Shown here: positions 22,253 to 42,532 of the stretch, in pieces
Layout: each line of letters begins with the position of its first letter
How positions within the stretch are numbered: position 1 is the stretch's first letter
Virus record (IMG/VR): IMGVR_UViG_3300028827_000129
Coordinates: 1-64,000 of that record
Direction: 5' to 3' (one strand)
Source of the DNA: a virus
Length of the DNA stretch: 64,000 bases
The notes under the pieces: generated by a model
Told to the model about the DNA's origin: nothing
The model's input: the letters and a program-made list of their open reading frames with translations, nothing else
Databases searched by the model: none
Position numbers and translations under genes: made by a program

Positions 22253-23023
22253 TTAACTATTTGCTTTTACATATTCAGTAAGATGACGTACAAAGCGATC
22301 TGCTGTTGTCTCTTTATCAGGATTATCTATAAAATGACTCATACTTGGTGCAGTATTTACTTCTAATACGTAACATTGATCAGGGTCATCAACAGGAACT
22401 AAAATATCTACTGCACCAAATAGAAAACCAAGTTCTTCAATTACATCTTTTGCTAGTTGTCTTATTTTCTTCTTTTTAACAGTGCCGTCATTTTCGACGG
22501 CAAAAAATCTATATCCATTAGCATAATTCTTTATTGGGTTAATTGGGTTAGTTTCTTCTGTAGGCTTTTTTTCTGTAAATTTAATTGACTTTCCATTAAA
22601 AACAAAAACTCGAAATTCTCGATTGTCTTCAATAAACTTTGTAGAGTAGGCATAACCTTCATCGTATAGCTTTTCTAATTTTTGTTTAGTAAAGCAGATT
22701 TTAAAATTATTGCCTCCCTGATGAGCTCCTTTTCTAACAACTCTTGGGAAATCGTCAGGTTGCCAATCTCTTTCTTCGCCTTTTATATGTACATCAATCA
22801 TTTTATCTCTTATCTTCTTGATATCGTCAAGTTTTTCTCTTTTAATTCCCCAAGGGACTTCAAAGTAGTTTTCAACTTCAATAATCTTTTTTACAGTATC
22901 ATTTTTTAGTTCTTCTTCCTTTAGTGCAATTGCTTTAAATCCTTCAATATTATTGATTTTTTCTGCTAAAAGATTTGCAGTTACATTAGTTTTCTTAGTA
23001 CGCTTTAACAAAACCTTATACAT
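22253..23023 (-). CDS. ATP-grasp ligase (RimK-like)
   Basis: It is 256 aa long. The C-terminal ATP-grasp lobe has LGFLFGAVDILVPVDDP, YVLEVNTAPSM (metal-binding Glu and Asn) and an earlier FIEDNREFRVFVFNGK strand. ATP-grasp enzymes form amide or peptide bonds through an acylphosphate. It overlaps the upstream class-II amidotransferase by 8 bases, so the two are probably produced together. A role in adding an amino acid or amine to a peptide or small molecule is inferred from family and neighbours. Confidence 0.88.
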   Translation of the reverse strand: MYKVLLKRTKKTNVTANLLAEKINNIEGFKAIALKEEELKNDTVKKIIEVENYFEVPWGIKREKLDDIKKIRDKMIDVHIKGEERDWQPDDFPRVVRKGAHQGGNNFKICFTKQKLEKLYDEGYAYSTKFIEDNREFRVFVFNGKSIKFTEKKPTEETNPINPIKNYANGYRFFAVENDGTVKKKKIRQLAKDVIEELGFLFGAVDILVPVDDPDQCYVLEVNTAPSMSHFIDNPDKETTADRFVRHLTEYVKANS

Positions 23024-24086
23024 TTAATTCTTCTCCTTTCAAACTATCTGGAATTTCTAGTTTAACTAAGCAATGACCACAAATAGCTTCTGATAACATT
23101 GCATATGTTAATGTTTCGTGGCATTGTGTACATTCAAAGTCACTTTCTTTAACATAACATGTTTGACATATATGGATATCTTCTATATCTACACATTGTG
23201 CATGACTTTTACAATGGTCACATTGGCTATGACGCCAAATTTTATTTGATGAAGAATGTGATGTACTATACGTCTTTTTACTATAGCTAGTTCCTCCGTA
23301 AGAATAAGTCTTATTACTACTGTAATAATTACTGTTGCTGTTATAATATGTTGTGTATGGGAAATGAGCTTCTTTTTCTAATCCATCTTTGCCTAAGATA
23401 ATTACTTTATCATTTGATACTTCTATAAAATGAAAATCATCATTATTAACAAACTTAAAACCTCTAAATTTTATTGAACAGATATGTTCTAAAAATGGCT
23501 TTTCTGAAGCAAAAAATACAATATCATTTTTCATATCCAGTAATAAATATAATGTTTTATTTCGCCTAAATAAATATAATTTATCAGGTTCTTTAACATT
23601 TAAGGCAGCAAAGGTTGCATCTCCTTTCATACTGCTAGCGTTATCTATAAATTTGTCAAATCCTAATTTATCTAATAGCATAGGTAAAATTATTGTATCA
23701 CTTTGAATATTATTTGGTACTTTTACATTATATTGTTTTTCTAATTCTTTAACATTATTGATTTTTCCGTTATGCACAACAGCCCAATTATTAAAAATCA
23801 TAGGATGGTTATTATCATTATTTTCAGCTTTTGCTCCAGTACTTGGATTTCTTGTATGTAAAATTGCTACAGAAGGCAAATTCTTTGTAAAATTTTCCCA
23901 GATTTCTGTTTTCATAAGTTCATCAGAACTTTTAGGTTCTTTGAAAAATAACATTTTATCTTCATGAATAAATGCAGTTCCTGAAGCTTCTTTTCCTCTT
24001 TGTCCAGATAAAGAAAACATTATTTCAAGATCTACAACTTTCGGCCTTTTATCACCAAAACATTTATAACCTAATATTCCACACAT
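23016..24086 (-). CDS. Class-II glutamine amidotransferase with C-terminal zinc ribbons, copy 1
   Basis: The Ntn-hydrolase domain (residues 1-230) starts MCGILGY, so Cys2 would be the N-terminal nucleophile. It also has SLSGQRGKEASG, ILHTRNPSTG, VVHNGKINN and QSDTIILPML. A Ser/Tyr/Asn-rich linker (residues 258-295) leads to zinc-ribbon modules (CDHCKSHAQC, ICQTCY, CTQCH, CGHCL). No synthetase domain is fused, unlike GlmS, PurF or AsnB. It would release ammonia from glutamine for a partner enzyme. A diverged second copy lies at 26143-27168. Confidence 0.88.
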   Translation of the reverse strand: MCGILGYKCFGDKRPKVVDLEIMFSLSGQRGKEASGTAFIHEDKMLFFKEPKSSDELMKTEIWENFTKNLPSVAILHTRNPSTGAKAENNDNNHPMIFNNWAVVHNGKINNVKELEKQYNVKVPNNIQSDTIILPMLLDKLGFDKFIDNASSMKGDATFAALNVKEPDKLYLFRRNKTLYLLLDMKNDIVFFASEKPFLEHICSIKFRGFKFVNNDDFHFIEVSNDKVIILGKDGLEKEAHFPYTTYYNSNSNYYSSNKTYSYGGTSYSKKTYSTSHSSSNKIWRHSQCDHCKSHAQCVDIEDIHICQTCYVKESDFECTQCHETLTYAMLSEAICGHCLVKLEIPDSLKGEELNV

Positions 24087-24102
24087 TTATCTCTTCCTTT
24101 CT

Positions 24103-25293
24103 TTATTTATATTCGTTATCTTTTTCAAAAGCTGTTTCATAAAGCTTATAAAGATCTGTATCGTATTGAGACGATACGGGTTTATAAGTAGCTGTAGTTG
24201 TTGTTGTCACTTTATTATTAAGAATATATGTGTATCCATGCTCATTAGATGCTTTTGTCTTTCCTCGTAAAAGTTTTTTAATTGGTTCTGATATATTTAT
24301 TGGATGCTTTGTATTATTAGGTTGTAACTTAGACTTTTGTTTTTCAGATGCCGATATATCTTCAGATGATAAATTAAGTAGATAATCAAATAAATATTTT
24401 AATCTGCTAAGCGATATTTGATCTTTAGTCATGTGTATTGCTTCTCGTATTGCATATGTGATACCTACACCAATATCAAATTTACGTAATGGTTGGTCAT
24501 ATAAATAAACATTAGGAAATAGCTTTAAGATAGAATCGACATCTTTCATCTGTTTTATTATCTTTTCTGAAGTTCTAATTACTATATGAGCATCTGAAGG
24601 GTATGTAGATGATTGTGTAGTAATACCAAATACCTTAATCCTATAAGTACTGCTAAAATCTACAAATGATGAAGATATAAGATTCATAACTTCATCTAAA
24701 AAATCATCATCAATATTCCATTCAACAGCATATTTATTTATTTTTTTATCTTTGGTTTGCGGAGTTATTGTTAATTTTGCTGGTTTTATTTTAACGAATT
24801 CTGGTGGTTTATCGGTATTAAATTTTGAAACAAAATTTAATATATCATCTTCAGATACATTAACTTCATTATTTTCTACAGATAAGGTTGCTTTACAATT
24901 AATACACACTATTGAATCTTTATAACCAGATTTTAATTGATCTAAGAAGAATAATCCATTACAAGTATCGCATCGTCGATAATATTGGCCAAAACATTTA
25001 TAACATATAATTTTGCCAAGATAATTATAGTATTGACCTTCCTTCCATGTTCTCCCACAATATGTGCATGCCTTGTATGTTAAACATTCTTTACAATGGA
25101 TATCATTGCTAGCATTAATAGCTTGTATATCATCTACTGTGTGCAGTGTTAAACATTTTTTACAATAAAACATGTCTGTATATCTTTTACAGTGTTTACA
25201 ACGGATTAACTTACCAGTTTCTTCTTCAATAGCTTTTATATTAAGTTCTATTTTGCCGTTACAAAAACAACAAATTGCAATTGTCTTTTCCAT
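24103..25293 (-). CDS. Multi-zinc-ribbon protein of the amidoligase island, 396 aa
   Basis: Residues 1-140 carry several CxxC pairs (CCFCNG, CKHCKR, CKKCL, CTYCGR, CYKCF, CDTCNG, CINCK), so four or so zinc ribbons. The rest is a mixed alpha/beta region with no recognised family, then a Thr-rich stretch. It sits between amidoligase 2 and amidotransferase copy 1, and its zinc ribbons resemble those fused to both amidotransferases. It may be the adaptor that holds the enzymes together. Confidence 0.6.
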   Translation of the reverse strand: MEKTIAICCFCNGKIELNIKAIEEETGKLIRCKHCKRYTDMFYCKKCLTLHTVDDIQAINASNDIHCKECLTYKACTYCGRTWKEGQYYNYLGKIICYKCFGQYYRRCDTCNGLFFLDQLKSGYKDSIVCINCKATLSVENNEVNVSEDDILNFVSKFNTDKPPEFVKIKPAKLTITPQTKDKKINKYAVEWNIDDDFLDEVMNLISSSFVDFSSTYRIKVFGITTQSSTYPSDAHIVIRTSEKIIKQMKDVDSILKLFPNVYLYDQPLRKFDIGVGITYAIREAIHMTKDQISLSRLKYLFDYLLNLSSEDISASEKQKSKLQPNNTKHPINISEPIKKLLRGKTKASNEHGYTYILNNKVTTTTTATYKPVSSQYDTDLYKLYETAFEKDNEYK

Positions 25294-25295
25294 AT

Positions 25296-26129
25296 TTAAA
25301 TCCAGTACTCCTTGATATCATCATTCCATTTTAAAGGCAATGAATTAATAGTTTTTTCTAAAACTGTAAGAAATACTTTTTTATCTTGAAAAAAATTCTT
25401 TTCGCTTAATTGGATAATCAATCCTAACTTTTCTTCATTTGTTGTTGCATTTCTTAGAGTTGTACATATTTTATTTAAATTTTGTGGTGTAATAGTAACA
25501 TTTGCCTCAAATGGAGTATCAATAGTTTTAATTTCTCCTATTTCTGTTCCGATAACAATATTATATGCTAAAGCTATATACAGATAAGACACTTGTGGAC
25601 TTAAAAGCCAGCTTCCTGGGGTTCTATATTCAAAATGATTAGTACCTTTAGTTCTATAATCTCCTAAATTTCCATAAACATTACCTCCTCCATTATGATG
25701 AGGAGCACCATTATTTCTTCTTTTTCTTTTTTCTTCTTTAGGATCTATTAATTCACTTAATAATTCAATGTAAATATCTAAATTTTGAACTATTGTACGA
25801 ATTTTGCTGGAAGTAACACCAGCAAAATGAATATGACCCCCAAGAGGTTTGTTCTTCTTATAATGCCCAGCTAGCCAATTTAATTGTGTCAATGTGCCAT
25901 TTTTAAAATCTAATCCTTTTGTATATGCTTGTTCAAAAACATTCTTAATTCTGGCAATCATTTCAAATGGAGTAGAAGCTACTCCAGGCCTAAGTTCACA
26001 AATAGGTGGATGACCATCACACCCAAAAGCTACAGTTTTATTTTTAGTTAAAATTGTATGAGCTGGTATTAGTACATTATTTTTATCTGTAAAAACAATT
26101 TCTGGGTCGCAACCTACAAGCAGATCCAT
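25296..26129 (-). CDS. Phage COOH-NH2 ligase (amidoligase) 2
   Basis: It is 277 aa long with the amidoligase signature: LLVGCDPEIVFTD, FGCDGHPPICELRPGVASTP, LGGHIHFAG, YGNLGDYRTKGTNHFEYRTP and GSWLLSP. These correspond to the metal, ATP and substrate motifs of the glutamine-synthetase fold. It is placed between a class-II amidotransferase gene and the multi-zinc-ribbon gene. The core motifs are more complete than in amidoligase 1. The substrate is unknown. Confidence 0.88.
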   Translation of the reverse strand: MDLLVGCDPEIVFTDKNNVLIPAHTILTKNKTVAFGCDGHPPICELRPGVASTPFEMIARIKNVFEQAYTKGLDFKNGTLTQLNWLAGHYKKNKPLGGHIHFAGVTSSKIRTIVQNLDIYIELLSELIDPKEEKRKRRNNGAPHHNGGGNVYGNLGDYRTKGTNHFEYRTPGSWLLSPQVSYLYIALAYNIVIGTEIGEIKTIDTPFEANVTITPQNLNKICTTLRNATTNEEKLGLIIQLSEKNFFQDKKVFLTVLEKTINSLPLKWNDDIKEYWI

Positions 26130-26142
26130 CTTACCTCCACAT

Positions 26143-27168
26143 TTAATGAACTAAGTCTTTATTACAATTTTCACATTTTTTATTTTTATTTAAAGGATTA
26201 TAACAAATTTTACAGTAATCTATTTGGTGGAAAGCATCAAAGCATTCTTTGCAAACAATTTGATTTTGTAGAAAATATTTTTTTCCATAAAAAACATCTA
26301 GACAAGAGTCGCAAATATTACCTTTTCCATTTTTAATTCTTTTTTCATACCAACTTTCATAATTCTCATGATTATGCAAATAAGAACTATTACTGTATTT
26401 ACCCTTCTTGACATCAACATCATAAAAAGAAATTGTGTCTCTATATAGATAATCGAACGTCATTTGCTGTTGTAATCCATTTTCATTAATGATTAAACAA
26501 GTGTTTTCACTAACCTCTTGAATATCTTTTGATGGTATAACAAAATTTCTCCATAAAGATTTTCCATTTAGATGGTATAAATATTTCTTAAGCGAAGCAA
26601 AATAAAATATATCATTGATTCTATCATAAAGATAGAATAATGGCCTTTCTTTACGATGTATAATTAACGAATAAGGATTTTCTTTATGATACATTGCAAA
26701 TGTTACAGCACCATTTAGTTGCTTTAAATACGACATTCCTTTTTCAACACCATAATGATCAAATAACCAAGCTATAGAAGCACTATCAACTTTTAGTTGC
26801 AAATTCATCCCATGCCATTCTCTAACAGCTTCATTGTTCATGAGAGTACCATTATGAACTAAAATAGTTTTCTCTAGTTTGATCGGATGATTATTTGTAT
26901 TATCTGATGAACTTCCTACACTACTTTTTCTGGCATGAAGAATCATTGTTTTTGGCAACTCTTCAAGTTTTTTCCAACGTTTTGTTTTTACAAAATCTGA
27001 TGCTTTTAATGGAGCTTTATAAACTATAAAATCTTTTTTATGTTCTGAATAATAACCAAATCCAGAGGCATCTTCTCCTCGTTCTTGTAAATATATAAAT
27101 AACTTCGTCAATAGCTGTTTGTCTGGACGCTTTTCTCCAAAACAATAATAACCTGCAATTCCGCACAT
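26143..27168 (-). CDS. Class-II glutamine amidotransferase with C-terminal zinc ribbons, copy 2
   Basis: It is 341 aa and paralogous to 23016-24086. It starts MCGIAGYYCFGEKRP, with QERGEDASGFGYY, ILHARKSSVGSS, LVHNGTLMN and KVDSASIAWLF. The C-terminus has zinc-binding pairs (CDSCLD, CKECF, CKICY, CENCN). Retaining Cys2 and the HNG motif implies both copies are active glutaminases. It overlaps the upstream gene by one base. Confidence 0.88.
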   Translation of the reverse strand: MCGIAGYYCFGEKRPDKQLLTKLFIYLQERGEDASGFGYYSEHKKDFIVYKAPLKASDFVKTKRWKKLEELPKTMILHARKSSVGSSSDNTNNHPIKLEKTILVHNGTLMNNEAVREWHGMNLQLKVDSASIAWLFDHYGVEKGMSYLKQLNGAVTFAMYHKENPYSLIIHRKERPLFYLYDRINDIFYFASLKKYLYHLNGKSLWRNFVIPSKDIQEVSENTCLIINENGLQQQMTFDYLYRDTISFYDVDVKKGKYSNSSYLHNHENYESWYEKRIKNGKGNICDSCLDVFYGKKYFLQNQIVCKECFDAFHQIDYCKICYNPLNKNKKCENCNKDLVH

Positions 27169-27647
27169 TATTCACATACCGCCTTTACTAATTTTTCTAT
27201 TTTATCAAAATGTTTTTTACGTGTATCTAAATCAAACGCAATAGCATGATTACGTTTTACAACAATAATATTTATAGAATCGCCAAAAACGGAATATATT
27301 TTTTTCTTTATGTGTGTATTGTAGCCAATTGCTATAGTTCTATCTAATCTATTTTTTAATCCATAAACATGGATTCTCCCTTTAAAATTGTATTTTTTAA
27401 ATAGGTCTGCAATTTCTTTTGCTTTTTGGTGCTTTGCATTATATGTAACTCTAGTATTTATATCAACCATTGCCGACTTTAATTTTTTGTCAGGTTTTAT
27501 TGGCTTAGCTATATTAGTCAAACGTTTATATGCTTTTTCATAAGAGCTATCTGTAAGCATATCTTTTATATTATCAAAAATAATAGTTTTTCTTTTATTA
27601 AAGTTTGTTTCAAATTCATCTGGGTTTATAGAAAATTTTGTATTCAT
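27168..27647 (-). CDS. Hypothetical protein downstream of reverse transcriptase, 159 aa
   Basis: No family was recognised. It is basic (many Lys), with an alpha/beta C-terminal half (RIHVYGLKNRLDRTIAIGYN, INIIVVKRNHAIAFDLD). Its ATG lies 2 bases from the reverse transcriptase stop, and the ribosome site is inside the RT gene, so the two are coupled. If the RT is a defence or retron-like system, this is the first candidate for its partner protein. Confidence 0.5.
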   Translation of the reverse strand: MNTKFSINPDEFETNFNKRKTIIFDNIKDMLTDSSYEKAYKRLTNIAKPIKPDKKLKSAMVDINTRVTYNAKHQKAKEIADLFKKYNFKGRIHVYGLKNRLDRTIAIGYNTHIKKKIYSVFGDSINIIVVKRNHAIAFDLDTRKKHFDKIEKLVKAVCE

Positions 27648-27648
27648 T

Positions 27649-29184
27649 TTAACCCTCTTTATATTTTTCTAACATTTTTTCAACTAATTTACTTTGTTCA
27701 TTATTGATAAGTTTAACAAAAGACATAAAACCATCTACATTGTATGTATCAGGATTGGATTTAATAAATCCTCTCCAAGCATGCATTGTTTTTCTTGGTA
27801 TCCTTAATGTTCCATCTTCATGAACACTGATACCATTAACATTTACATATGGGTAAGTCATAATTTTAAATTTATGTTTATTAATTGGTATATCTAGATA
27901 ATTAACAAAGAAACTTGTTAATTGTTTTTTGAGTTGTAATTTTTCTTCTTTATTAAGTTTCTTAGATAATGATATTGTAATATCATCAACATATCTTGTA
28001 TATGCAACCATTTTTGCTTTTGTTGCTCTGTATATAAGTTTGCGTAAAAAATTTATATACTTTTGTTCTATTCTAGACATGACAATATTAAAAATATATG
28101 TTGACGTAGGACTGCCAATGGGTAAAATAAACCCATTATTATTTGGTAATATTGTGTAATCAATAATTTTAGACGATATTAAACTAGTAAATCTTGAATG
28201 GATTAAACGTTTATAAATACGATTTCTATTCCCCATTAAAATATTATGAAAAGCATTTTTTATATCAACTTTTACCCAAGTTATTGGAGCATTCTTTTTA
28301 CTGAAATGATATTTGATAGCATCAACCATATTTCTGTTTTTAACTCCTCCATAGCTATATTTGCCAGGAGAAATATTTTTATAAAGTATTTTTAAGATAT
28401 CACGTTGTAAATTTTTAATATTTTCATTTGGCTTATGAATAAATCTAATACCTCCATTGCTTTTTTTGATAAAATATGTTTTATAAAGTTTATTTATTGC
28501 AACTCCATCAACATTGTTATCTTTAAATGACTGTGATAAGATAATAGTATTATCCAAATCTTTTTTAAAATTATGTTTACCACTCTTAACATATGTATAT
28601 ACTGAAATAAATTGATCTAGTAATGCTTTTATGACATCCCAAGATTGATCTATCTTTTTATTTTTCTTAAGATATTTTAATTTCTGTTTATGAACATTAA
28701 AATCTATTTCTTTCCCATTAATATAAATAGTTATGGCTAAAAGAGACATGAATTGATATCCTAATGTATTAAAAAAATTCATATTTATTACTTCATTATC
28801 ATTTTTTTGTATAAATTGTATTATATTTTCGTAAGACTCTCCATTAGTTTTTTCAATAACATCTTTTAATTGCAAATCTTTATACTTATCAGGAATAGTT
28901 CCATTTTTTATATGTGTGGCAATTTCATAAAACAGATTTGCTTGTTTTATATCAGAATCATTAAACCAATCCATAAATGCTTTTTTATATATATTTAAAA
29001 CTTGTATTTCCATTTTAGACAAAGAAATTTCTGGTTGTTTTTTTTCTGTATCTGGCCATTTTAAGATATAGTAAAACAATGTAATTGGACTGCAAGTATA
29101 GAACCTTTTGTCATTATAAAGTTTTACTGCCATGTTTCTTAAATTTAAATAATTTATCATACTACTATATTTTTTCTTTTGCAT
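27649..29184 (-). CDS. Reverse transcriptase, retron/Abi-like
   Basis: It is 511 aa long. The RT domain occupies the second half: IRFIHKPNENIKNLQRDI (RT1), YGGVKNRNMVDAIKYH (RT2), WVKVDIKNAFHNI (motif A with catalytic Asp), LPIGSPTSTYIFN (motif B), YTRYVDDITIS (motif C, YVDD), INKHKFKIM (D) and YVNVNGISVHEDGTLRIPRK (retron-like motif E/7 region). The first 220 residues match no family I recognise. The start at 29184 is chosen because GGAGG lies 5 bases upstream; an ATG at 29211 forms the hairpin arm. No endonuclease or maturase domain is present. It is embedded in the amidoligase island, with a hairpin-rich leader at 29185-29318. Confidence 0.88.
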   Translation of the reverse strand: MQKKKYSSMINYLNLRNMAVKLYNDKRFYTCSPITLFYYILKWPDTEKKQPEISLSKMEIQVLNIYKKAFMDWFNDSDIKQANLFYEIATHIKNGTIPDKYKDLQLKDVIEKTNGESYENIIQFIQKNDNEVINMNFFNTLGYQFMSLLAITIYINGKEIDFNVHKQKLKYLKKNKKIDQSWDVIKALLDQFISVYTYVKSGKHNFKKDLDNTIILSQSFKDNNVDGVAINKLYKTYFIKKSNGGIRFIHKPNENIKNLQRDILKILYKNISPGKYSYGGVKNRNMVDAIKYHFSKKNAPITWVKVDIKNAFHNILMGNRNRIYKRLIHSRFTSLISSKIIDYTILPNNNGFILPIGSPTSTYIFNIVMSRIEQKYINFLRKLIYRATKAKMVAYTRYVDDITISLSKKLNKEEKLQLKKQLTSFFVNYLDIPINKHKFKIMTYPYVNVNGISVHEDGTLRIPRKTMHAWRGFIKSNPDTYNVDGFMSFVKLINNEQSKLVEKMLEKYKEG

Positions 29185-29318
29185 TAATTCCTCCATTTTC
29201 GAACCTTTCATATTTTGAATTTATGAAAGGTTCAAAATTTAAAGCGTACTCTTTATTTGAGTACTAAATAAAGAAGAAAGCACTTAAGCGAAAACACTTA
29301 GGCTTATAAAAACTTTTT
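29185..29318 (-). ncRNA. Hairpin-rich leader of the reverse transcriptase (candidate msr/msd-like RNA)
   Basis: This 134-base gene-free interval lies between the FmdB-like stop and the RT start. It has an 11-bp stem (arms 29201-29211 and 29223-29233), an 8-bp stem (29251-29258 with 29266-29273), and a repeated CACTTA 14 bases apart at 29281 and 29295. The first stem ends 16 bases before the RT start codon. Retron template RNAs lie at this position, but no a1/a2 pair or conserved guanosine could be assigned, and 134 bases is short. A translational control structure is the alternative. Confidence 0.4.
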
Positions 29319-29513
29319 TTATTTACTATAGCCGTTTGAACTCCATCCTACTCCACCTGGTTTTAAAATAAATGAAGTATTGACAATTATTTTTGTTGCT
29401 ATATTATTGCATTTTGGACATTTTGCCCAATTTCTTTCATCATAAATAGAACGTTGTAGTTCAAATTGATGTTTACATTTTGGATTATCACATGCAAAAA
29501 CATAAATTGGCAT
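29319..29513 (-). CDS. FmdB-family zinc ribbon protein
   Basis: It is 64 aa with the typical MPIYVFACDNPKCKHQFE start, then CPKCNNIATKII and FILKPGGVGWSSNGY. The two CxxC-type pairs bind zinc. FmdB-like proteins are small putative regulators. The ATG at 29513 follows GGAGG; the earlier ATG overlaps that ribosome site. Confidence 0.8.
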   Translation of the reverse strand: MPIYVFACDNPKCKHQFELQRSIYDERNWAKCPKCNNIATKIIVNTSFILKPGGVGWSSNGYSK

Positions 29514-29514
29514 T

Positions 29515-29826
29515 TTAAATTCCTCCATTATGTTTTTCTTTTCGCTTTATAGGATATGTGTTTAAAATATCATTTAAAACTTGTAATAAAGTTTTCTTGT
29601 CCTTTTTTAACTCTTCTGGCCATACATAAAATGCAGTATTTCCTTTGTCTTTTATGCCTTTTACTTTAAATCGGATTCTTTTTGTTGAATATAAAGGAAT
29701 AATTTCTTCTATAACAACTTCTCTCTTTTTTGCAAATGCTACTTTTGGATCATAATAAAATGTTTTATATAATAATTTATTTTCTGCAAAAGCTACTTGT
29801 TCATAAAATAATTTATTATTTTCCAT
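29515..29826 (-). CDS. Hypothetical protein, 103 aa
   Basis: No family was recognised. It is a mixed beta protein with basic ends (FYEQVAFAENKLLYKTFYYD, IRFKVKGIKDKGN). The start at 29826 lies just after the C26 hydrolase 2 stop; a longer frame from 29934 would overlap that gene by 83 bases and is less likely. The ribosome site is weak. Confidence 0.5.
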   Translation of the reverse strand: MENNKLFYEQVAFAENKLLYKTFYYDPKVAFAKKREVVIEEIIPLYSTKRIRFKVKGIKDKGNTAFYVWPEELKKDKKTLLQVLNDILNTYPIKRKEKHNGGI

Positions 29827-29851
29827 CTTAATTTTCTTTTTTTCTCTTATT

Positions 29852-30637
29852 TTATTTAATCTCTTTAATGAACGCCTGAATGATCTTGAGACAATCATCA
29901 TTAAACATTTCCTCTGGGTGCCATTGCACTCCAATAGCTAAAACGCCATCTTTTGTTGACTCAATTGCTTCAATCACATTATCAGATGGGCTTCTAGCTA
30001 TAATATTAATATCAAAATTACTTGGAGATTCTTTCCATACAATCTTATTATTTTTATTTCTGATTGGAACTGTGCAATCAATAGCCTGATGATGCATAGA
30101 ATTTACCCATGTTATATCTTTTTGTAATGCTTTGTAAAGAAAACTGTTTTGGGCAATTTTGATTTTATGCGTAGCTACTGAGCGAATTTGTGTCTGCATA
30201 TGTCTTGCAGGACTATCTACAAATTCTCTAATATCTTGCCATAATTGACATCCATGAGCCACCCCAATGATTTGATGTCCACGACAAATGCCTAAAATTG
30301 GCTTCTTTCTTTCAATACATCTTTTAGCTAGATAAATTTCAAATTCATCTCTTTTAGGTAATCCTTGTGTGCAATTTCTATCTTCTTCTCCATAGTAAAT
30401 TGGGACAATATCATGTCCACCAGAAAGCAAGATTGCATCCATAGAGTCAATAATTTGATCAACATATTTATCTTTTTCTTCTTTTGCCCAAGTTGTAACA
30501 TCAAAAAATTCAGATGGGATTAAAACTGATGCTGCACCAGCAGCTTGTACGTATTTAGCGTATGCTTTGTTTACAGAAATTTTAGGGATATCCTTAACGT
30601 CTCTCATTACAGGAGTTGTAATACCAATAGTAACCAT
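29852..30637 (-). CDS. Class-I glutamine amidotransferase-like / C26 gamma-glutamyl hydrolase 2
   Basis: At 261 aa it resembles PuuD (gamma-glutamyl-GABA hydrolase): VTIGITTPV start, ILLSGGHDIVPIYYGEE, nucleophile Cys in LGICRGHQIIGVAHG, HHQAI and GVQWHPEEM with catalytic His and Glu. It is more canonical than copy 1 at 21352-22035. Likely reaction: hydrolysis of a gamma-glutamyl amide, perhaps reversing an island product. Confidence 0.9.
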   Translation of the reverse strand: MVTIGITTPVMRDVKDIPKISVNKAYAKYVQAAGAASVLIPSEFFDVTTWAKEEKDKYVDQIIDSMDAILLSGGHDIVPIYYGEEDRNCTQGLPKRDEFEIYLAKRCIERKKPILGICRGHQIIGVAHGCQLWQDIREFVDSPARHMQTQIRSVATHKIKIAQNSFLYKALQKDITWVNSMHHQAIDCTVPIRNKNNKIVWKESPSNFDINIIARSPSDNVIEAIESTKDGVLAIGVQWHPEEMFNDDCLKIIQAFIKEIK

Positions 30638-30649
30638 CTAAATCTCCTT

Positions 30650-31273
30650 TCATTCTTCAGATAATTCTTCTATATCATAAAACACTATTTCTTGATCTAT
30701 AGTCAATGTAGCAAGTGTTGCATGACAGCTGGTACATTCTATAAGAAATGTACCTTCAGGTACTCTGATAATATCAATCGTTTCTGTTTCTTCTATATTC
30801 TCTCCACAATTTGGACACTTTTTATATGTATATCTTGCTTTAAAACGTTTTATATTATTTCTTACAATACGAGCAAAAAATTCCTCAACATCAACAAACA
30901 TTTTAGTATTTAACAGACAAAATCTGTTTAAACTATTTTTGGATTTAAATAAGTTTTTGTTAACAGCCCAATTTTTTCTCTTTATTTTTCCATAAAATGA
31001 TATAATTATTTCTCCAATAACAGAATCGCATTCCATGCATGACAATGCTAAACTAGCATTTAAAAAATGACCTTTGTTATTTTGGGCAGGTATTGTTTCT
31101 TCAATTTCAATTAGAATAGCATTGAAATCTTCAAAGTCTTTTTTACAATGCTCACAAAATCTTGGGATAATAATACTATTATCTCCTAGTAATTCTATAA
31201 GAAAATCATACCATATATCATCCAATTCATCAAGTACAACTGATTCAATACTAAGGCAAGTCTCTATGCTCAT
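30650..31273 (-). CDS. Zinc-ribbon hypothetical protein, 207 aa
   Basis: No family was recognised. CxxC pairs occur at CEHCKKDF, CMECDS, CPNCGEN and CTSCHA, arranged as two split zinc ribbons around a basic helical middle. The start overlaps the upstream stop (ATGA). It is another cysteine-rich member of the amidoligase island. Confidence 0.55.
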   Translation of the reverse strand: MSIETCLSIESVVLDELDDIWYDFLIELLGDNSIIIPRFCEHCKKDFEDFNAILIEIEETIPAQNNKGHFLNASLALSCMECDSVIGEIIISFYGKIKRKNWAVNKNLFKSKNSLNRFCLLNTKMFVDVEEFFARIVRNNIKRFKARYTYKKCPNCGENIEETETIDIIRVPEGTFLIECTSCHATLATLTIDQEIVFYDIEELSEE

Positions 31274-31851
31274 TTAGTTTTCCTCTTTATATGTTTTTTA
31301 ACATCTAAAAGATTAAATTCGTCAAGGATACTTCTACATATGGTAAAAGGCTTTATACATCTTCTTTTTGTAACAAAGTTTCTTATTTTACCATATAAAA
31401 AATAAGTATCTCTTGAACTCATAACAATAGGTTGTTTAATAATTTCTTTATTAACGCCAGAGTTTTTTATCAATTCCAGAGCATACCAATAAGTGAATTG
31501 AGCAGCTTTATAATTTAAATCATCTTTATCATATTCCATTCTTTTAGCTAAACGTTTTCCTTTCTTTTTTGTATATACTTTATTTTCATATATATAACAA
31601 TTTATATTTGAATACTGAAAATTAAAAATAACTCCTTGTTTAACATAATAAAGCCTTAATAAATCTCTATTTTTTTCTTCACGTAAAAAACATAGCCCCC
31701 ATTGCTCTTTGTTTGGGTTTACTATTAATTTAAATTTTCTAGTCATATCATCATATTGTGTTAAATAAACATTCTTTGAATCTTTAAAATCTATATCAAG
31801 AGGTTGTATTTCAAGAACTGGTTTATTATATTGGATAAGAGCCTGAGACAT
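31270..31851 (-). CDS. Hypothetical protein, 193 aa
   Basis: No family was recognised. The N-terminal half is beta-rich (VYLTQYDDMTRKFKLIVNP, GVIFNFQYSNINCYIY); the C-terminal half is basic and helical. AAGGAG lies within the end of the upstream gamma-glutamylcyclotransferase gene, which it overlaps by 26 bases. Confidence 0.5.
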   Translation of the reverse strand: MSQALIQYNKPVLEIQPLDIDFKDSKNVYLTQYDDMTRKFKLIVNPNKEQWGLCFLREEKNRDLLRLYYVKQGVIFNFQYSNINCYIYENKVYTKKKGKRLAKRMEYDKDDLNYKAAQFTYWYALELIKNSGVNKEIIKQPIVMSSRDTYFLYGKIRNFVTKRRCIKPFTICRSILDEFNLLDVKKHIKRKTK

Positions 31852-32251
31852 GTTCAATAAAATACTCCTTTTCTTTAATATTTTTTACATGTGCATAACG
31901 ACGAATACATATACTGGTAGCCAAGTATGTAAAGGCTTTTATTTCTGTGCCATCATCTTTTATTACAGTTATTTTTTCTCTTGTATAGCCTGATTCAAAT
32001 TTATCAAAAAATGGTAACATAGAAACATTTACATCCCATAATTCTCCTTTAATTTTAACAGGCTGATAATAATGATAAGCATTATACATAGATTGCTTTA
32101 ATAAAAAAGGAATATGGTTTTGTTTTGCAGAAATTAAAACCATAGTATTTTTTGTAATGGCAGGACAAATATATTTTGCTTTTAACATATTTTTTAAAAA
32201 ACTATTATTAAAACAACCATTTTTACACGAACCATAAATAAAAAATATCAT
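31826..32251 (-). CDS. Gamma-glutamylcyclotransferase-like (AIG2/GGCT fold)
   Basis: It is 141 aa. The GGCT signature is seen: MIFFIYGSCKNGC (YGS loop), VKIKGELWDV, and FFDKFESGYTREKITV with the catalytic Glu position, then AFTYLAT. GGCT-fold enzymes cleave gamma-glutamyl amines to 5-oxoproline and free amine. The fold recurs beside amidoligases in described neighbourhoods, which strengthens the assignment. GGAG precedes the ATG. Confidence 0.8.
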   Translation of the reverse strand: MIFFIYGSCKNGCFNNSFLKNMLKAKYICPAITKNTMVLISAKQNHIPFLLKQSMYNAYHYYQPVKIKGELWDVNVSMLPFFDKFESGYTREKITVIKDDGTEIKAFTYLATSICIRRYAHVKNIKEKEYFIEHVSGSYPI

Positions 32252-32824: not shown

Positions 32825-33946
32825 TTAATTCATCAAAGGTGTAATATTTAATGGAGAAAAAATATCTGAAAAGCTTGTAGCAGTTTTATAAATTGATAAA
32901 TTAAAAGGCTTTGTCATGTTATAATTTTTAAATAGCATTTCATTATTGCATTTTGTAAATGCTAAGTTCAAAGAACGTTTTACAAAATTATTTTTTGGCG
33001 TGTTTTTATATTCATGTTTCTTTTCTTTTTCTGTATATACACCGAAATTAATTGGCATAGACAAGAGCATATGATCAGTAAATGAAGTTTTGATCATATA
33101 AGCTTCATTTCCATATTCGTATACAGATACCATATTATTCAGACCACTATAAGTTGTACCATTTCTATGTACGATTACCCTTTTCCCAAATAAATCTTCA
33201 ATTGTAATAGATTGATTATAATGAGAAAAACGGTCAATTCTATTAATATAATCTAACTTTCTCATTACAATATCTTCTACAATTCTTTGCAAAGTATTTC
33301 TCAAATAATCTGCTAATTGCTGTAAAAACATATATGTTTTCATAAGTTCTAAACCAAAGGAAGAATTTATGTCAATATATGATGTTATATCATTATTAAG
33401 CTTTTCTTTTATTAAATTATAAAAAACTTTCCCAATATTACCAACATCAGATTCTATAAGGCAACTTATATAACCTTCACTATTGACTATAAAAAACTCT
33501 ATTATGCTACCAGGAGGGAAAATATCTAATTGCTCTGGGAATTCTAAACTATTAAGAAGTTTAAGATTTCTTGCATAATAAACACAATCTAATTCATGAT
33601 AATTAATTTTATGCTTTGTAATTTCTTCATAAATTTCATAGTAAATAGATTCTATATCTTTAGATGGAATATGCTCTAAAAAAGTTGTGGTTTTGAAAAT
33701 AGAAACATTCCGTCCAAAACCAATCCTCGAAGACAACAATAAAGGCATTATCATATTTTCTATAGGAACAACGACGCCATTAAAGCATGATTCTTTGTCG
33801 TAACAAAAATTTTCAAAACCAACAACGTAAGGATAAATATCTACTTGTCTAATTATTTTATCGAAAGCTTTTACTAAATCTTTGTTGACATAAGGAGAGT
33901 AAAGATTAAAAACTGAATGAGTTAAAGGTAATTTATTAGGTTTCAT
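32825..33946 (-). CDS. Degenerate RtcB-like paralogue, probably non-catalytic
   Basis: At 373 aa it parallels the true RtcB of this phage (39377-40534, 385 aa) segment by segment. VVVPIENMIMPLLLSSRIGF aligns with the VVATEHIVVPSWVGYDQGCG region, LDIFPPGSIIEFFIVNSEGY with LGTLGGGNHMAEIAYDEDSY, ESDVGNIG with HSGSRNVG, and KRVIVHRNGTTY with RKVWIHRKGATQ. The metal Cys, the Asn-His pair, and the guanylylated His region (SSHGAGR, here SMPINFG) are lost. It could be a structural partner or decoy. The alignment is by eye; the spacing agreement is the main support. Confidence 0.65.
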   Translation of the reverse strand: MKPNKLPLTHSVFNLYSPYVNKDLVKAFDKIIRQVDIYPYVVGFENFCYDKESCFNGVVVPIENMIMPLLLSSRIGFGRNVSIFKTTTFLEHIPSKDIESIYYEIYEEITKHKINYHELDCVYYARNLKLLNSLEFPEQLDIFPPGSIIEFFIVNSEGYISCLIESDVGNIGKVFYNLIKEKLNNDITSYIDINSSFGLELMKTYMFLQQLADYLRNTLQRIVEDIVMRKLDYINRIDRFSHYNQSITIEDLFGKRVIVHRNGTTYSGLNNMVSVYEYGNEAYMIKTSFTDHMLLSMPINFGVYTEKEKKHEYKNTPKNNFVKRSLNLAFTKCNNEMLFKNYNMTKPFNLSIYKTATSFSDIFSPLNITPLMN

Positions 33947-33955
33947 TTAGTACCT

Positions 33956-34318
33956 CTAAATCAAAACTGGGAATCTATCATGGACTTCTTTTTCTCTTTT
34001 ATGCATTGCCTCTCTAGTAACAACTTTTACAATACCATTTTTATATATTCCTTTTATATTTTTACCAAATGTTGAAAATTTTACTCCATTCTCAACAAAT
34101 TTTGAGACATTAATAATTTGACAGTCTTTCCAGTTTTGAGGATACCACACAGTTTGGAGAGATTCTTGTCTGGCGTGCCCGTCCCACTTTGCTTTTATAA
34201 TTGCATTGGGGAAAAATCCACTATTTTTTATAGAAATATTTACTTTATCTCCTATATGTACATTAATTTTACTTCCATCAAAAACATCTTTAGCGTCGTA
34301 TATCATACGACCACACAT
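33956..34318 (-). CDS. Minimal SRAP (HMCES/YedK-like) protein
   Basis: It starts MCGRMIYD, so removal of Met would expose Cys2, the residue that crosslinks abasic sites in SRAP proteins. Further family traits are GHARQESL and the C-terminal VVTREAM to VHDRFPVLI, matching the usual His-Asp-Arg-Met-Pro end. At 120 aa it is about half the usual size, and the GFYEW segment is not evident. The start at 34318 has GGAGG at 5 bases. Role: shielding abasic sites in single-stranded DNA. Confidence 0.7.
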   Translation of the reverse strand: MCGRMIYDAKDVFDGSKINVHIGDKVNISIKNSGFFPNAIIKAKWDGHARQESLQTVWYPQNWKDCQIINVSKFVENGVKFSTFGKNIKGIYKNGIVKVVTREAMHKREKEVHDRFPVLI

Positions 34319-36643: not shown

Positions 36644-37978
36644 TTAAATTTCACAGTTATCCTCTAATTCGGCCATTGCTGTTTTACGGATTTCTTCAAA
36701 AGTATATTCAACGAAAAACTTTCCATTTTTCCATACGAGCGGTAAATTGAGATAATCAAATCTGCCAGCTTTACTTTTCTTCCATTGGCAGTCTTTAGGT
36801 TGTTTATATACACTTCTCCAACCTTCTCCAGGAATATGAATAGCAGATATCTTCATGGCATAACCATATGTGTCACGATTAACTTGTTGTAAAGAACCTC
36901 CACCCATTCCAAAGGCAATATTATCAGCTGACCATTTATTTTTTTCCATCACTGAAAGAATTTCTTCTATGTTATCTGGACTAGAAATACCATCACCTTG
37001 AATAAGTCTTATACAGTCTGGTAAAACCTTATATCCTTTTTTATTAATAGAACTACCAAAAGCTTCTTCAAGTTCATTTAACGAACGAAGAACAACTTCT
37101 GAAGGTTCACCAGAATCTGGCCTTACAACAAGTGTTCCGCCAGATTTGAATATCTGTGATTTGAGCTGTTTTCCCCAAATATTTCTAATAGCATTTGAAA
37201 GATCATAACTATCAGAAACACATGCCGCTATCTTACCTTCGCCAAGAAAATTATCAATAAAATTTTTGTATGCGTTGGCTTCATTGGCTCTGCCCCATGA
37301 AGTAATAGTTGAATGTTCGGCTGCATTAATGGAGAATCCCAGCATTGAATCAGTATTATAATATTTTTGTGCAGCGAAAATGCCTGCTATTGTATCTGTT
37401 CCCATAGAAGTAGTAAGCTCAGCCATACCACCAATAGCAGCTGATTCTTCAGAGCTGGTACCTCTATATCCAAATGAATGTAGTTTAAATGGTGCTAAAG
37501 AAGGATCGCCAGTATAATTCAGATATTTAAGAATAATCTTCTTACATTCAAATTGTCTTGTAGCAACAGTACATGGGTACCATATTTGAAGAAGGCGTGT
37601 TTCTATCCAGCCAGGAAGCCAACCAAAATCTGGATGCGTAGATTCGATAGTTACCTGTACTTCGCCAATATCGACCAAATGCCCTTCTTTAACTGCTCTA
37701 ATTTCTAAAGGATAATAACCTAAATCGGCTAATTGCATCCAGCCTTTTTTGTTAAAAGCTACTCCATGTGCTTCCCAAAACTTAGCTGCCTCTTCAACGT
37801 CAGACTTTGATGGTACATTACTTAAAATTTTTTTAATGATGGCTTGTAGACCGAAGAATAATATCTCATCTCCTCCGCGCCTAGCTTCAATGTAATAGTA
37901 AGTGCCTGTGTTTTGTGGGAATTGTAGAAAATGACTTGCTTTATAAGAGTCAGTAGATGTAATTAAAGTGTTATTCAT
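36644..37978 (-). CDS. nadV: Nicotinamide phosphoribosyltransferase (NAMPT/NadV)
   Basis: It is 444 aa with family motifs TDSYKASHFLQFP, WEAHGVAFN, FKLHSFGYRGTSSEESAA, SINAAEHSTITSWGR, VVRPDSGEPSEVVLR, LIQGDGISS and MGGGSLQQVNRDTYGYAMK. It joins nicotinamide and PRPP into NMN. The next gene downstream in transcription order is separate, but the NMN adenylyltransferase lies immediately upstream, giving a two-step NAD+ salvage route. Start: the second of two adjacent ATGs, with better spacing from GGAGG. Confidence 0.95.
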   Translation of the reverse strand: MNNTLITSTDSYKASHFLQFPQNTGTYYYIEARRGGDEILFFGLQAIIKKILSNVPSKSDVEEAAKFWEAHGVAFNKKGWMQLADLGYYPLEIRAVKEGHLVDIGEVQVTIESTHPDFGWLPGWIETRLLQIWYPCTVATRQFECKKIILKYLNYTGDPSLAPFKLHSFGYRGTSSEESAAIGGMAELTTSMGTDTIAGIFAAQKYYNTDSMLGFSINAAEHSTITSWGRANEANAYKNFIDNFLGEGKIAACVSDSYDLSNAIRNIWGKQLKSQIFKSGGTLVVRPDSGEPSEVVLRSLNELEEAFGSSINKKGYKVLPDCIRLIQGDGISSPDNIEEILSVMEKNKWSADNIAFGMGGGSLQQVNRDTYGYAMKISAIHIPGEGWRSVYKQPKDCQWKKSKAGRFDYLNLPLVWKNGKFFVEYTFEEIRKTAMAELEDNCEI

Positions 37979-38019
37979 CATTTACCTCCTTTGCATCTAT
38001 GCATCTGAGTTTTTATTAG

Positions 38020-38925
38020 TTATTTTTTTGGTTCGATTTTATTAAGTAGTATACTAAAAAGTTTTTGATGAATATCAATAATCTCATCTTTCAACTTTTC
38101 AATATACTCGAACCACCGTACTTCATATATGTCATCACCCGGGTCTGGAAACCCGGAAATGTCATTTGTACTAAAAAATATTGTAGTAATTTTATCTACT
38201 TCTGATCTATAGCGCCAATCGTCTACAACGATACTACTAATATATTTTAAATTTTCTACATTTAATCCAGCTTCTTCTTTTACTTCTCTTTTACCTGCAT
38301 CTTCAAATGTTTCACCTGGTTTGATAAATCCTCCTATAAATCTATATTTATCTTCATGTTTTTTCTTGCCAAGAAGAAGTTGTGTATATTCTTTATTAAA
38401 GATAGCAACATCAACAGTAGGAATACATTTTGGCCATTGATTCATTGTAGCCCAAATAACACCATGTCTAAAATCTGCTGAAGCTTTTACTTTATTAGAT
38501 AAAACTTTTCTTCTTGCTGTAGCAGATATAAAAGTTTTTTGTGTCAGTTCTTTTGTTTCAAATTTCCCATAATAATGATCGATAAAAGAATCTCTTCCTC
38601 CATATAAAACTACACTTTGTCGAGGTCCGATAATATCATCGATCATATCATCTAATGTTTGGCTCCAAAGTTTATCTGAATGCATATCCTTTATGTAAAG
38701 GATAATTACATCAGGAAATGTTTTTAATATCATCTGCTTTCTGGCTTCAAAGTCCAATGGATTTTTTACTGTACATTTACATGGACTTAACCCAAGAAAT
38801 ATTAAAACTCGTTCATGTCTATCAATTACATATTTTATTAATTCTTTATGTGCTTCAGTAAGCTCGTCTGTCTGAAACCTGCCTACTATAACACCAACAT
38901 CATAATTTTTTTGTATTTCTTTCAT
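38020..38925 (-). CDS. nadM: NMN adenylyltransferase fused to Nudix hydrolase (NadM-Nudix)
   Basis: Residues 1-170 are the nucleotidyltransferase domain (VGVIVGRFQTDELTEAHKEL, LGLSPCKCTVKNPLDFEARK, ISATARRKVL). Residues 180-301 are a Nudix domain with GGFIKPGETFEDAGKREVKE and EAGL. The first domain makes NAD+ from NMN and ATP; the second probably cleaves ADP-ribose. It is the gene before nadV in the same transcript. Together they match the NAMPT-type NAD reconstitution pathway that some phages use against NAD-depleting defences. Confidence 0.93.
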   Translation of the reverse strand: MKEIQKNYDVGVIVGRFQTDELTEAHKELIKYVIDRHERVLIFLGLSPCKCTVKNPLDFEARKQMILKTFPDVIILYIKDMHSDKLWSQTLDDMIDDIIGPRQSVVLYGGRDSFIDHYYGKFETKELTQKTFISATARRKVLSNKVKASADFRHGVIWATMNQWPKCIPTVDVAIFNKEYTQLLLGKKKHEDKYRFIGGFIKPGETFEDAGKREVKEEAGLNVENLKYISSIVVDDWRYRSEVDKITTIFFSTNDISGFPDPGDDIYEVRWFEYIEKLKDEIIDIHQKLFSILLNKIEPKK

Positions 38926-39376: not shown

Positions 39377-40534
39377 TTATCCTTTTACATTAATAATGGG
39401 CTTAAGATATGCAATTATTTCAACCAAATCTTTTTGCATTTCTATAACCTCAAAAATATTTTTATATGCCATAGGGCTTTCATCTATAGTAGAAGAAGCT
39501 ACTTTAGCTTTTATATCTTTCATTGCAGTTCGAAAATCTTCCATATCTATAGATTCTTTTGCCTTTTTTCTACTCATAACTCTTCCAGCTCCATGAGAGC
39601 TGGAAAATAAAGACTCTTCATTCCCAAGGCCACGAACAACAAAGGAGCCATCTCTCATATTACCGGGAATAATACCATACATGTTATACTCTGCTTGTGT
39701 AGCCCCTTTACGATGTATCCAAACCTTACGACCATTTATCTGTTTAGATTCACAATGATTGTGATTTCTGTTTATTACTATGCTGGTATCAAATTTAGGA
39801 ACATAATTTGATAGTATAGCTAATATTTCGTTAGCTATTACTTCCCTATTTTTTAAAGCAAACCGCAAACATACTTCCATATCCATCAAATAATTTTTTC
39901 CTTCTTTAGAATCTACAGAGAGCCCATAATGCTTTTCTCTTACTTTATTATCTGGAGAAGCTAAACGCATATAATGTGTAGCCATGCTATGGCCGACATT
40001 TCTGCTACCTGAATGTATCACTATCCAAACATATGAATCTTCATCATAGGCAATTTCTGCCATATGATTGCCACCACCAAGAGTGCCAAGTTGATATAAG
40101 CCACCTTTTTCTTCAAACATCTGTTCGAATTCTGGAGTTTTAGCTATTTTTTTATATTCATTCCAAGAAATAGGATATTCTCGATGTTTATGTCCTACTG
40201 GAATTCTATCATAAATGTTAGAGAAAATCTTATCTATATATGGTTGGATTTCTTCACGAACAATAGAAGTTTTAATTCCATATACTCCACAGCCTTGATC
40301 GTAACCCACCCAACTTGGGACAACTATATGTTCTGTGGCAACTACTGCTCCAATAGGCAACGAATACCCGGCATGAGCATCTGGCATTAAAGTTCCACGT
40401 ACTACAAAAGGTTGTTCCATAGCAGAAATAAATTGTTCTGCAGCTTCTCTTTCTAGTTGTTTTATAAAAAGAGCAACCTTCTTATCTTTTGGCAATCTAA
40501 ATAAAACTTCTTCTTTTGTGATCATAGCGCACAT
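39377..40534 (-). CDS. rtcB: RNA-splicing ligase RtcB
   Basis: It is 385 aa with all key motifs: PDAHAGYSLPIGAV (metal Asp), VGYDQGCGVYG (metal Cys82), LGTLGGGNHMAE, IVIHSGSRNVG, INRNHNHCE, VWIHRKGATQAE and SSSHGAGRVMSR with the His that carries GMP. It joins 2',3'-cyclic phosphate or 3'-phosphate RNA ends to 5'-OH ends, as needed to repair tRNAs cut by host nucleases. GGAGG lies 8 bases before the ATG. A leader of about 130 bases without a gene precedes it (40555-40682), with a small CCAT..ATGG hairpin. Confidence 0.95.
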   Translation of the reverse strand: MCAMITKEEVLFRLPKDKKVALFIKQLEREAAEQFISAMEQPFVVRGTLMPDAHAGYSLPIGAVVATEHIVVPSWVGYDQGCGVYGIKTSIVREEIQPYIDKIFSNIYDRIPVGHKHREYPISWNEYKKIAKTPEFEQMFEEKGGLYQLGTLGGGNHMAEIAYDEDSYVWIVIHSGSRNVGHSMATHYMRLASPDNKVREKHYGLSVDSKEGKNYLMDMEVCLRFALKNREVIANEILAILSNYVPKFDTSIVINRNHNHCESKQINGRKVWIHRKGATQAEYNMYGIIPGNMRDGSFVVRGLGNEESLFSSSHGAGRVMSRKKAKESIDMEDFRTAMKDIKAKVASSTIDESPMAYKNIFEVIEMQKDLVEIIAYLKPIINVKG

Positions 40535-41693: not shown

Positions 41694-41909
41694 CTATTGT
41701 TTCAATATATTTATTATTTTTTTATAGTTTTCAGGATCATGAGGAAAAGTACAATAAGTACATTCTTTTATCCCATTTATAAAGGTGGGGTTTCCTGGGC
41801 AATCTAAATGATACAAAGGGCAGAAACAAAATAGACAATTGAATGTATTTTTAAAATAATTATTGTGGCATGGGAAATACTCGCATTCTTTATATTCAAA
41901 AAACTTCAT
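41694..41909 (-). CDS. Cysteine-rich small domain protein
   Basis: It is 71 aa with the spacing of the cysteine-rich small domain family: ECEYFPCHNNYFKNTFNCLF, CFCPLYHLDCPGNP, GIKECTYCTFPHDPENY. It probably binds metal. Its start overlaps the RNA ligase stop by ATGA. The role in phages is unknown. Confidence 0.75.
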   Translation of the reverse strand: MKFFEYKECEYFPCHNNYFKNTFNCLFCFCPLYHLDCPGNPTFINGIKECTYCTFPHDPENYKKIINILKQ

Positions 41910-42532
41910 TTCATATCTTTTAATTTATTAGGTATGATTTCTTTATAGAACCAGTGTTCATCTGTTTGGACATGGTTAGGTCTTACATATTTCGCTATGC
42001 TATTTTCAAAATCTTCATACCTAAAATGATTCTTTAACCTAACCACATAACCTTCATGTTTTTCTTGGTCCATTTCACTCCAAATATATTCTATCAAGAG
42101 TTTATGGTATCTACCAATATACCAAACAGGAACAGGCTCAATACCTATAATATTAAACCAATCTATTGTATCTGGCCAATCAAGACATGTATTGTTTTCA
42201 TCCCATATACTAAATCCATAGAAATATGACCTTAATTGATCATAATGAATGCTATGTGTTGCATATAAGTTTTCTCCACATATTCTCCAGCCTTCTGGGA
42301 TATTATATCTTATTGTATTCCAAAAAGCTTTTACCCAGTTTCTAGATTCATGTTTGGAGTACGTTAAAGAGCGGGCATGTATGGCGTCTCTATACATAGT
42401 AGTATTTTCGCCATCCATCTTTTCTGTTACAACAATAAATTTACCGTAGAAATTTTTGTCTGTTAAAAGTTTTCTGTCGTCTTTGCCTGCATGACTCCAT
42501 GGTAAATGTGGAGTTCTAGGATACTTTATCAT
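41906..42532 (-). CDS. RNA ligase (Rnl2-like family)
   Basis: It is 208 aa. Motif I is TEKMDGENTTMYRD with the nucleotidyl Lys; motif III/IIIa is FYGFSIWDENNTC; motif IV is EGYVVRLKNHF; motif V is around AKYVRPNHVQ. It is a short ligase without the C-terminal domain of T4 Rnl2. It would seal nicked RNA through a ligase-AMP intermediate. It overlaps both neighbours. Confidence 0.85.
   Translation of the reverse strand: MIKYPRTPHLPWSHAGKDDRKLLTDKNFYGKFIVVTEKMDGENTTMYRDAIHARSLTYSKHESRNWVKAFWNTIRYNIPEGWRICGENLYATHSIHYDQLRSYFYGFSIWDENNTCLDWPDTIDWFNIIGIEPVPVWYIGRYHKLLIEYIWSEMDQEKHEGYVVRLKNHFRYEDFENSIAKYVRPNHVQTDEHWFYKEIIPNKLKDMK

Follow-up and report, generated by a model that had tools for sequence, protein, structure and literature searches.

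Can a protein that lacks the catalytic residues of the RNA ligase RtcB still be an RtcB in descent and fold, and what use could it have in a phage that also encodes an active RtcB? The question is raised by a gene for a 373-residue protein at 32825-33946 (minus strand) of the window, which is the first 64 kb (64,000 nucleotides) of a 170-kb virus record; the structural genes lie outside the window. The first-pass annotation described the product as a catalytically stripped RtcB paralogue next to a genuine RtcB.

The terminase and portal of this phage are closest (31-37% identity) to those of Acinetobacter phage ME3, Moorella phage MTATph1 and Bacillus phage KLEB27-3. Three RNA ligases and no fewer than seven tRNAs accompany the gene studied here. 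One is a genuine RtcB with all catalytic residues present in our residue table (39377-40534, minus strand; PF01139, E 1.2e-89), one is Rnl2-like (41906-42532, minus strand; PF09414, 5.7e-32) and one is T4 Rnl1-like (46418-47569, minus strand; PF09511, 4.8e-22; phrog_562). RtcB, Rnl1, Rnl2 and tRNAs together are what large phages typically carry for RNA repair, and combinations of the three ligases have been described in phages (PMC7824862). The two RtcB-related genes share a genome but are about 5.4 kb apart, so "next to" applies only loosely.

Several other genes of this region, all on the minus strand, deserve mention in their own right. The gene directly upstream (33956-34318) has a strong ribosome-binding site (AAGGAGGT) before ATG-TGT-GGT-CGT (MCGR...). 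Its product, with VKVVTREAMHKREKEVHDRFPVLI at the C-terminus, resembles by eye an SRAP/HMCES protein, though a very short one; Pfam, NCBIfam, PDB and phage searches gave this identity no support. At 27649-29211 there is a 520-residue protein with a long N-terminal extension. Its residues 248-452 match a reverse transcriptase domain (RVT_1, 2.4e-18), and among the PADLOC models it is closest to those of retron type (RT_II-A, 3.8e-28). The cluster at 22253-32251 contains two class-II glutamine amidotransferase-domain proteins, a RimK/S6 glutaminyl transferase-like protein, a peptidase C26 and a gamma-glutamyl cyclotransferase-like protein; together they may form a system for peptide ligation or a gamma-glutamyl system. 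At 36644-38925 a gene that by eye is nicotinamide phosphoribosyltransferase-like adjoins one that, again by eye, is nucleotidyltransferase-Nudix-like, a probable NAD salvage pair.

Similarity to RtcB and predicted fold

Library scans of the 373-residue protein gave no match to PF01139, phrog_1075 or the NCBIfam RtcB models at E 10 (Pfam, PHROGs and NCBIfam), and the PADLOC scan was negative. The relationship to RtcB was assessed by profile comparisons with controls. When the single sequence was aligned by hhalign to a profile of 14 diverse RtcBs, cellular-type ones included, the score was 50.2 (probability 88%, E 3e-6, 207 columns). As controls, 307 unrelated phage proteins of similar size reached no more than 25.9 with the same profile, and 250 shuffles no more than 25.5.

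An HMM of 16 phage RtcBs gave 18.4 bits, against 7.6 for the best of 5000 shuffles and 10.2 for the best of some 10,000 phage ORFs, RtcB fragments set aside; two separate regions of the protein contribute to the match. Four further RtcB HMMs gave 6.3-14.6 bits, above all shuffles, one of them by just 0.1 bit. With a sixth, deep model dominated by the clade of the phage's own RtcB, the score was 7.3 bits and one shuffle scored higher. Hydrophobicity counts were uninformative.

By BLASTP the protein matches the phage's own RtcB with E 5e-4 (22% identity over 240 residues), and its best match is a Stenotrophomonas phage RtcB (E 8e-8 over 313 residues). Only two matches were returned by tblastn from 50,697 phage records, that Stenotrophomonas phage RtcB and a near-copy, both RtcBs, at E 8-9. 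Small pairwise E-values from large searches need discounting, as is seen from a 46-residue stretch of the protein that matches an RlaP nucleotidyltransferase with E 3e-6 in a single comparison. An identity as RlaP (PF10127) was rejected: the phage genome has no PF10127 match, the GS...SDxD motif is absent by eye and the similarity is confined to the 46 residues. We take it to be due to chance.

Could the resemblance to RtcB likewise be a chance similarity of an unrelated orphan protein? The negative library scans agree with this, as does the free multiple alignment, where conserved-column counts for the protein are no better than those for shuffles; the RlaP match illustrates that isolated local matches arise when thousands of proteins are searched. 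However, RlaP is matched by a single short stretch, while the RtcB profile score is far above those of 557 controls and spread over 207 columns, the HMM match comes from two separate regions, and length and order agree with RtcB. We therefore consider an unrelated orphan very improbable.

Because the hhalign match and that to the HMM of 16 phage RtcBs exceed their controls, homology is accepted despite the null library scans, in agreement with the relationship first proposed. The protein is in all likelihood a very distant, roughly colinear RtcB homologue, below what family models detect. It had also been claimed that five segments follow each other in the same order and spacing as in RtcB. 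The roughly colinear alignment and the agreement in length and order bear out the order, but order alone is unconvincing, given that the column counts do not beat shuffles.

It should be kept in mind that structure prediction depends here on what is supplied. AlphaFold2 without an alignment gave a poor model (pLDDT 34.5), and a fold search with it matched nothing. With 23 RtcB relatives as alignment, the model reached pLDDT 65 and pTM 0.70, residues 1-270 being well above the C-terminal 100 (pLDDT mostly 31-51). This second model matches RtcB structures with Z 19-21 over 307-350 aligned residues and everything else with Z at or below 5; as RtcB rows were its input, the match is partly circular and indicates compatibility with the RtcB fold rather than independent proof. 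The alignment-based model is in accord with the secondary structure predicted for the protein by itself (Q3 0.62, while shifts of 15 or more gave no more than 0.43), an agreement to which we give little weight because the same sequence lies behind both. The protein probably has the RtcB fold; the structure prediction proposed with the original claim gave an RtcB-like model only when RtcB relatives were supplied.

Active site and integrity of the gene

RtcB is a 3'-phosphate/5'-OH RNA ligase (PF01139; in phages phrog_1075), with seven Mn/GMP positions that in P. horikoshii numbering are Asp95, Cys98, Asn202, His203, His234, His329 and His404. His404 is the residue that becomes guanylylated. Published structures show Mn bound by Asp95, Cys98, His203, His234 and His329; His404 lies in that pocket too (PMC10630183). 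As reference for these columns we used 98 phage RtcBs. Each position is conserved in 97-98 of them, the exceptions being one N-to-S change and one record in which the metal loop is deleted.

In the alignments, D79, C82, N156, H157, H174 and H314 of the phage's own RtcB correspond in the 373-residue protein to R, F, S, I or a gap, E and I. The replacements lie in recognisable stretches, all read on the minus strand. LSSRIGFG (33710-33733) stands at the site of the metal loop VGxDxGCG, with Arg for Asp95 and Phe for Cys98. At DIFPPGSIIE (33497-33526), the site of GTLGGGNHxxE, Asn202-His203 has become Ser-Ile (His203 being aligned with Ile or a gap), and at LIESDVGNIG (33431-33460), the site of xxHSGSRxxG, His234 is replaced by Glu and the Arg by Gly. 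LSMPINFGV (33038-33064) takes the place of SSSHGAGRV, with Ile for the guanylylated His404 and Val for the next Arg. In the SHYNQS region (33209-33229), the site of the HN motif with His329, the alignment is uncertain: Tyr or Asn is aligned, and a His is found one or two residues off. In both alignments and HMMs the best-conserved stretch is the VIVHRNGTTYS region (33149-33181; VxxxRKGAxxA in RtcB), where the Arg is kept and the Lys is Asn. Further, the phosphate/GMP-pocket residues R178, K276 and R318 (own-RtcB numbering) are lost, and R275 and several glycines are retained.

The first-pass annotation was right, then, that the metal-binding Cys, the Asn-His pair and the guanylylated His are replaced. 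The Mn ligands that define RtcB (Asp95, Cys98, His203 and His234) are absent, as is His404, and judged by these residues the protein is not an RtcB ligase. By established RtcB chemistry, the RtcB route to ligation of RNA with a 3'-phosphate or a cyclic phosphate is closed where no RtcB-GMP intermediate can form. It is very unlikely that this protein would perform that chemistry. It resembles the family in overall length, in the order of the conserved stretches and in the fold predicted with RtcB relatives as input, and differs in the missing equivalents of Asp95, Cys98, Asn202, His203, His234 and His404, in an identity of only about 15-21% and in being missed by the family models.

Loss of catalytic residues could also mean that a former RtcB copy is drifting without function. 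A very long branch in the tree, and the lack of orthologues in the virus records searched, would fit such decay. Nevertheless the gene runs from an ATG at 33946 to a stop at 32825 through 373 codons that contain no stops or frameshifts despite about 80% divergence. A likely ribosome-binding site, AGAGGT (33952-33957, minus strand), is well placed before it, in a tightly spaced run with 9 bases to the upstream and 10 to the downstream gene. The in-frame codon score, 0.201 per codon, is near those of 27 neighbours (0.176-0.386), and the other frames score negative. We computed that the chance of an open frame after neutral change of 200-300 residues is about 1e-6 to 1e-9. Since neutral drift over about 80% residue change would almost surely leave stops, the gene has probably been kept for some use, and a decaying gene is given only a very slim chance.

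Origin and relatives

The proposed origin as a paralogue of the phage's own RtcB is not established by our comparisons. The match of the protein weakens once the profile is limited to the clade of that RtcB, the hhalign probability being 2%, against 88% with the diverse profile. The own RtcB and the related viral RtcBs (L112-L188) are catalytically complete, unlike the 373-residue protein, and the profile match to them is weak, although the own RtcB is in the same genome and can be aligned colinearly. In the best tree the protein falls on the own-RtcB side, on a saturated branch of about 7-10 changes per column. An alternative origin is kept by the AU test (p 0.425), and the pairing with the own RtcB is likewise kept (p 0.35). 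"Paralogue" should here be read as a second RtcB homologue in the genome.

None of the searches, which covered about 80 virus records, turned up an orthologue. They took in 30 virus records that share the terminase and, among viruses with related RtcBs, 50 complete records and the flanks of 80 loci; the others were a scan of viral contigs, searches by way of the neighbour genes and DNA polymerase, and tblastn against phages and plasmids. Searches with a joint alignment of the pseudoenzyme and RtcB gave a single true RtcB (L111) and no orthologue. An extra match in G063 was rejected as an orthologue, as it proved to be an RlaP nucleotidyltransferase. All these searches have low power for a protein of 20% identity, so the missing orthologues are weak evidence of absence. 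One 87-kb record (L029, IMG sample 3300003542) has an identical terminase and is probably another copy of this phage; it contains no match to the protein, and by position it should not cover the gene.

In general, more than one RtcB homologue in a genome is nothing new: the RtcB paralogues of Myxococcus xanthus and the RtcB2 of PrfH operons, compared here by their published description, are examples, but these are enzymes that work, to a varying degree, in ligation or capping (PMC10630183, PMC9223846). In the portion available of a survey of 1,183 RtcB-family sequences, three diplonemid proteins keep all function-critical residues and no stripped members are mentioned (PMC12699882). The first-pass view that a pseudo-ligase in a phage with an active RtcB is undescribed agrees with our searches of the open literature, in which no description of an inactive RtcB was found.

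Two viral loci show other irregular RtcB genes. In L170 (9938-11098) an otherwise complete RtcB has an in-frame loss of the metal-loop stretch with Asp95 and Cys98, which no other frame holds; this is possibly a second, mildly stripped RtcB. Three RtcB-related elements lie in a row in L150 (9190-11655). One is a fragment from the N-terminal part of RtcB, one is complete, and one is an ORF with the RtcB C-terminus at its end, before which lies an unrelated stretch that by eye is like a homing endonuclease. The row suggests interrupted RtcB copies.

Possible roles of the protein

The reading that we prefer is that of a full-length pseudoenzyme derived from RtcB, whose fold is retained as a binding surface, most likely within the RNA-repair programme of the phage; we give it about an even chance of being correct. 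Of the seven residues involved in binding of the two Mn ions or attachment of GMP at least six are gone, and catalysis would be gone with them; during RNA repair the retained surface would make contact with a partner, be it the active RtcB, some other protein or RNA. There is precedent for a non-catalytic use: RtcA and RtcB bind the CARF domain of RtcR without needing catalysis (PMC9650030). The idea is testable for this reason.

What would be bound? The pI of the protein is 6.7, in a genome whose proteins are mostly basic. Given this non-basic pI and the loss of the phosphate pocket, our best guess is that it binds a protein or serves as a scaffold, its partner being the active RtcB or some host factor, rather than capturing broken RNA ends. 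In particular, with the R178, K276 and R318 equivalents gone, the old pocket is an unlikely place for simple binding of 3'-phosphate ends, and both nonspecific RNA binding and 3'-phosphate capture are less attractive. More specifically, the protein may partner or regulate the active phage RtcB or act on the host RNA-damage response, and would then be the first non-catalytic protein with the RtcB fold; this we put forward only tentatively, as somewhat doubtful.

The fold may instead have been turned to a new ligand or catalytic site in place of the metal site, giving another enzyme or a ligand sensor. The gene is intact and coding, and some active-site positions are again polar or charged (Arg, Glu, Ser), beyond merely small. 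Yet the hydrophobic replacements (Phe, Ile, Ile) cannot bind metal, and one sequence cannot reveal a new conserved site. Such neofunctionalisation seems to us unlikely, with a modest share of the probability.

A decoy or inhibitor would mimic the RtcB surface against host RtcB or its regulator RtcR, or sequester damaged tRNA from host sensors. The binding of RtcR by RtcB without catalysis would make this feasible, and phages commonly counter host RNA-damage responses (PMC7824862). However, at about 20% identity the protein is too divergent for close mimicry of the surface of cellular RtcB, and the Arg and Lys of the phosphate pocket are lost. We regard this role as improbable.

A pseudoenzyme derived from RtcB would be surprising to a specialist in RNA repair, even if it rests on one very divergent sequence and on a function that we infer. 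Among the phage and bacterial proteins examined, the RtcB active site looks almost invariant. An intact homologue without it would show the RtcB fold to be useful even when it does not catalyse, and might mean a further layer of regulation in the RNA repair by which phages answer tRNA-cutting defences.
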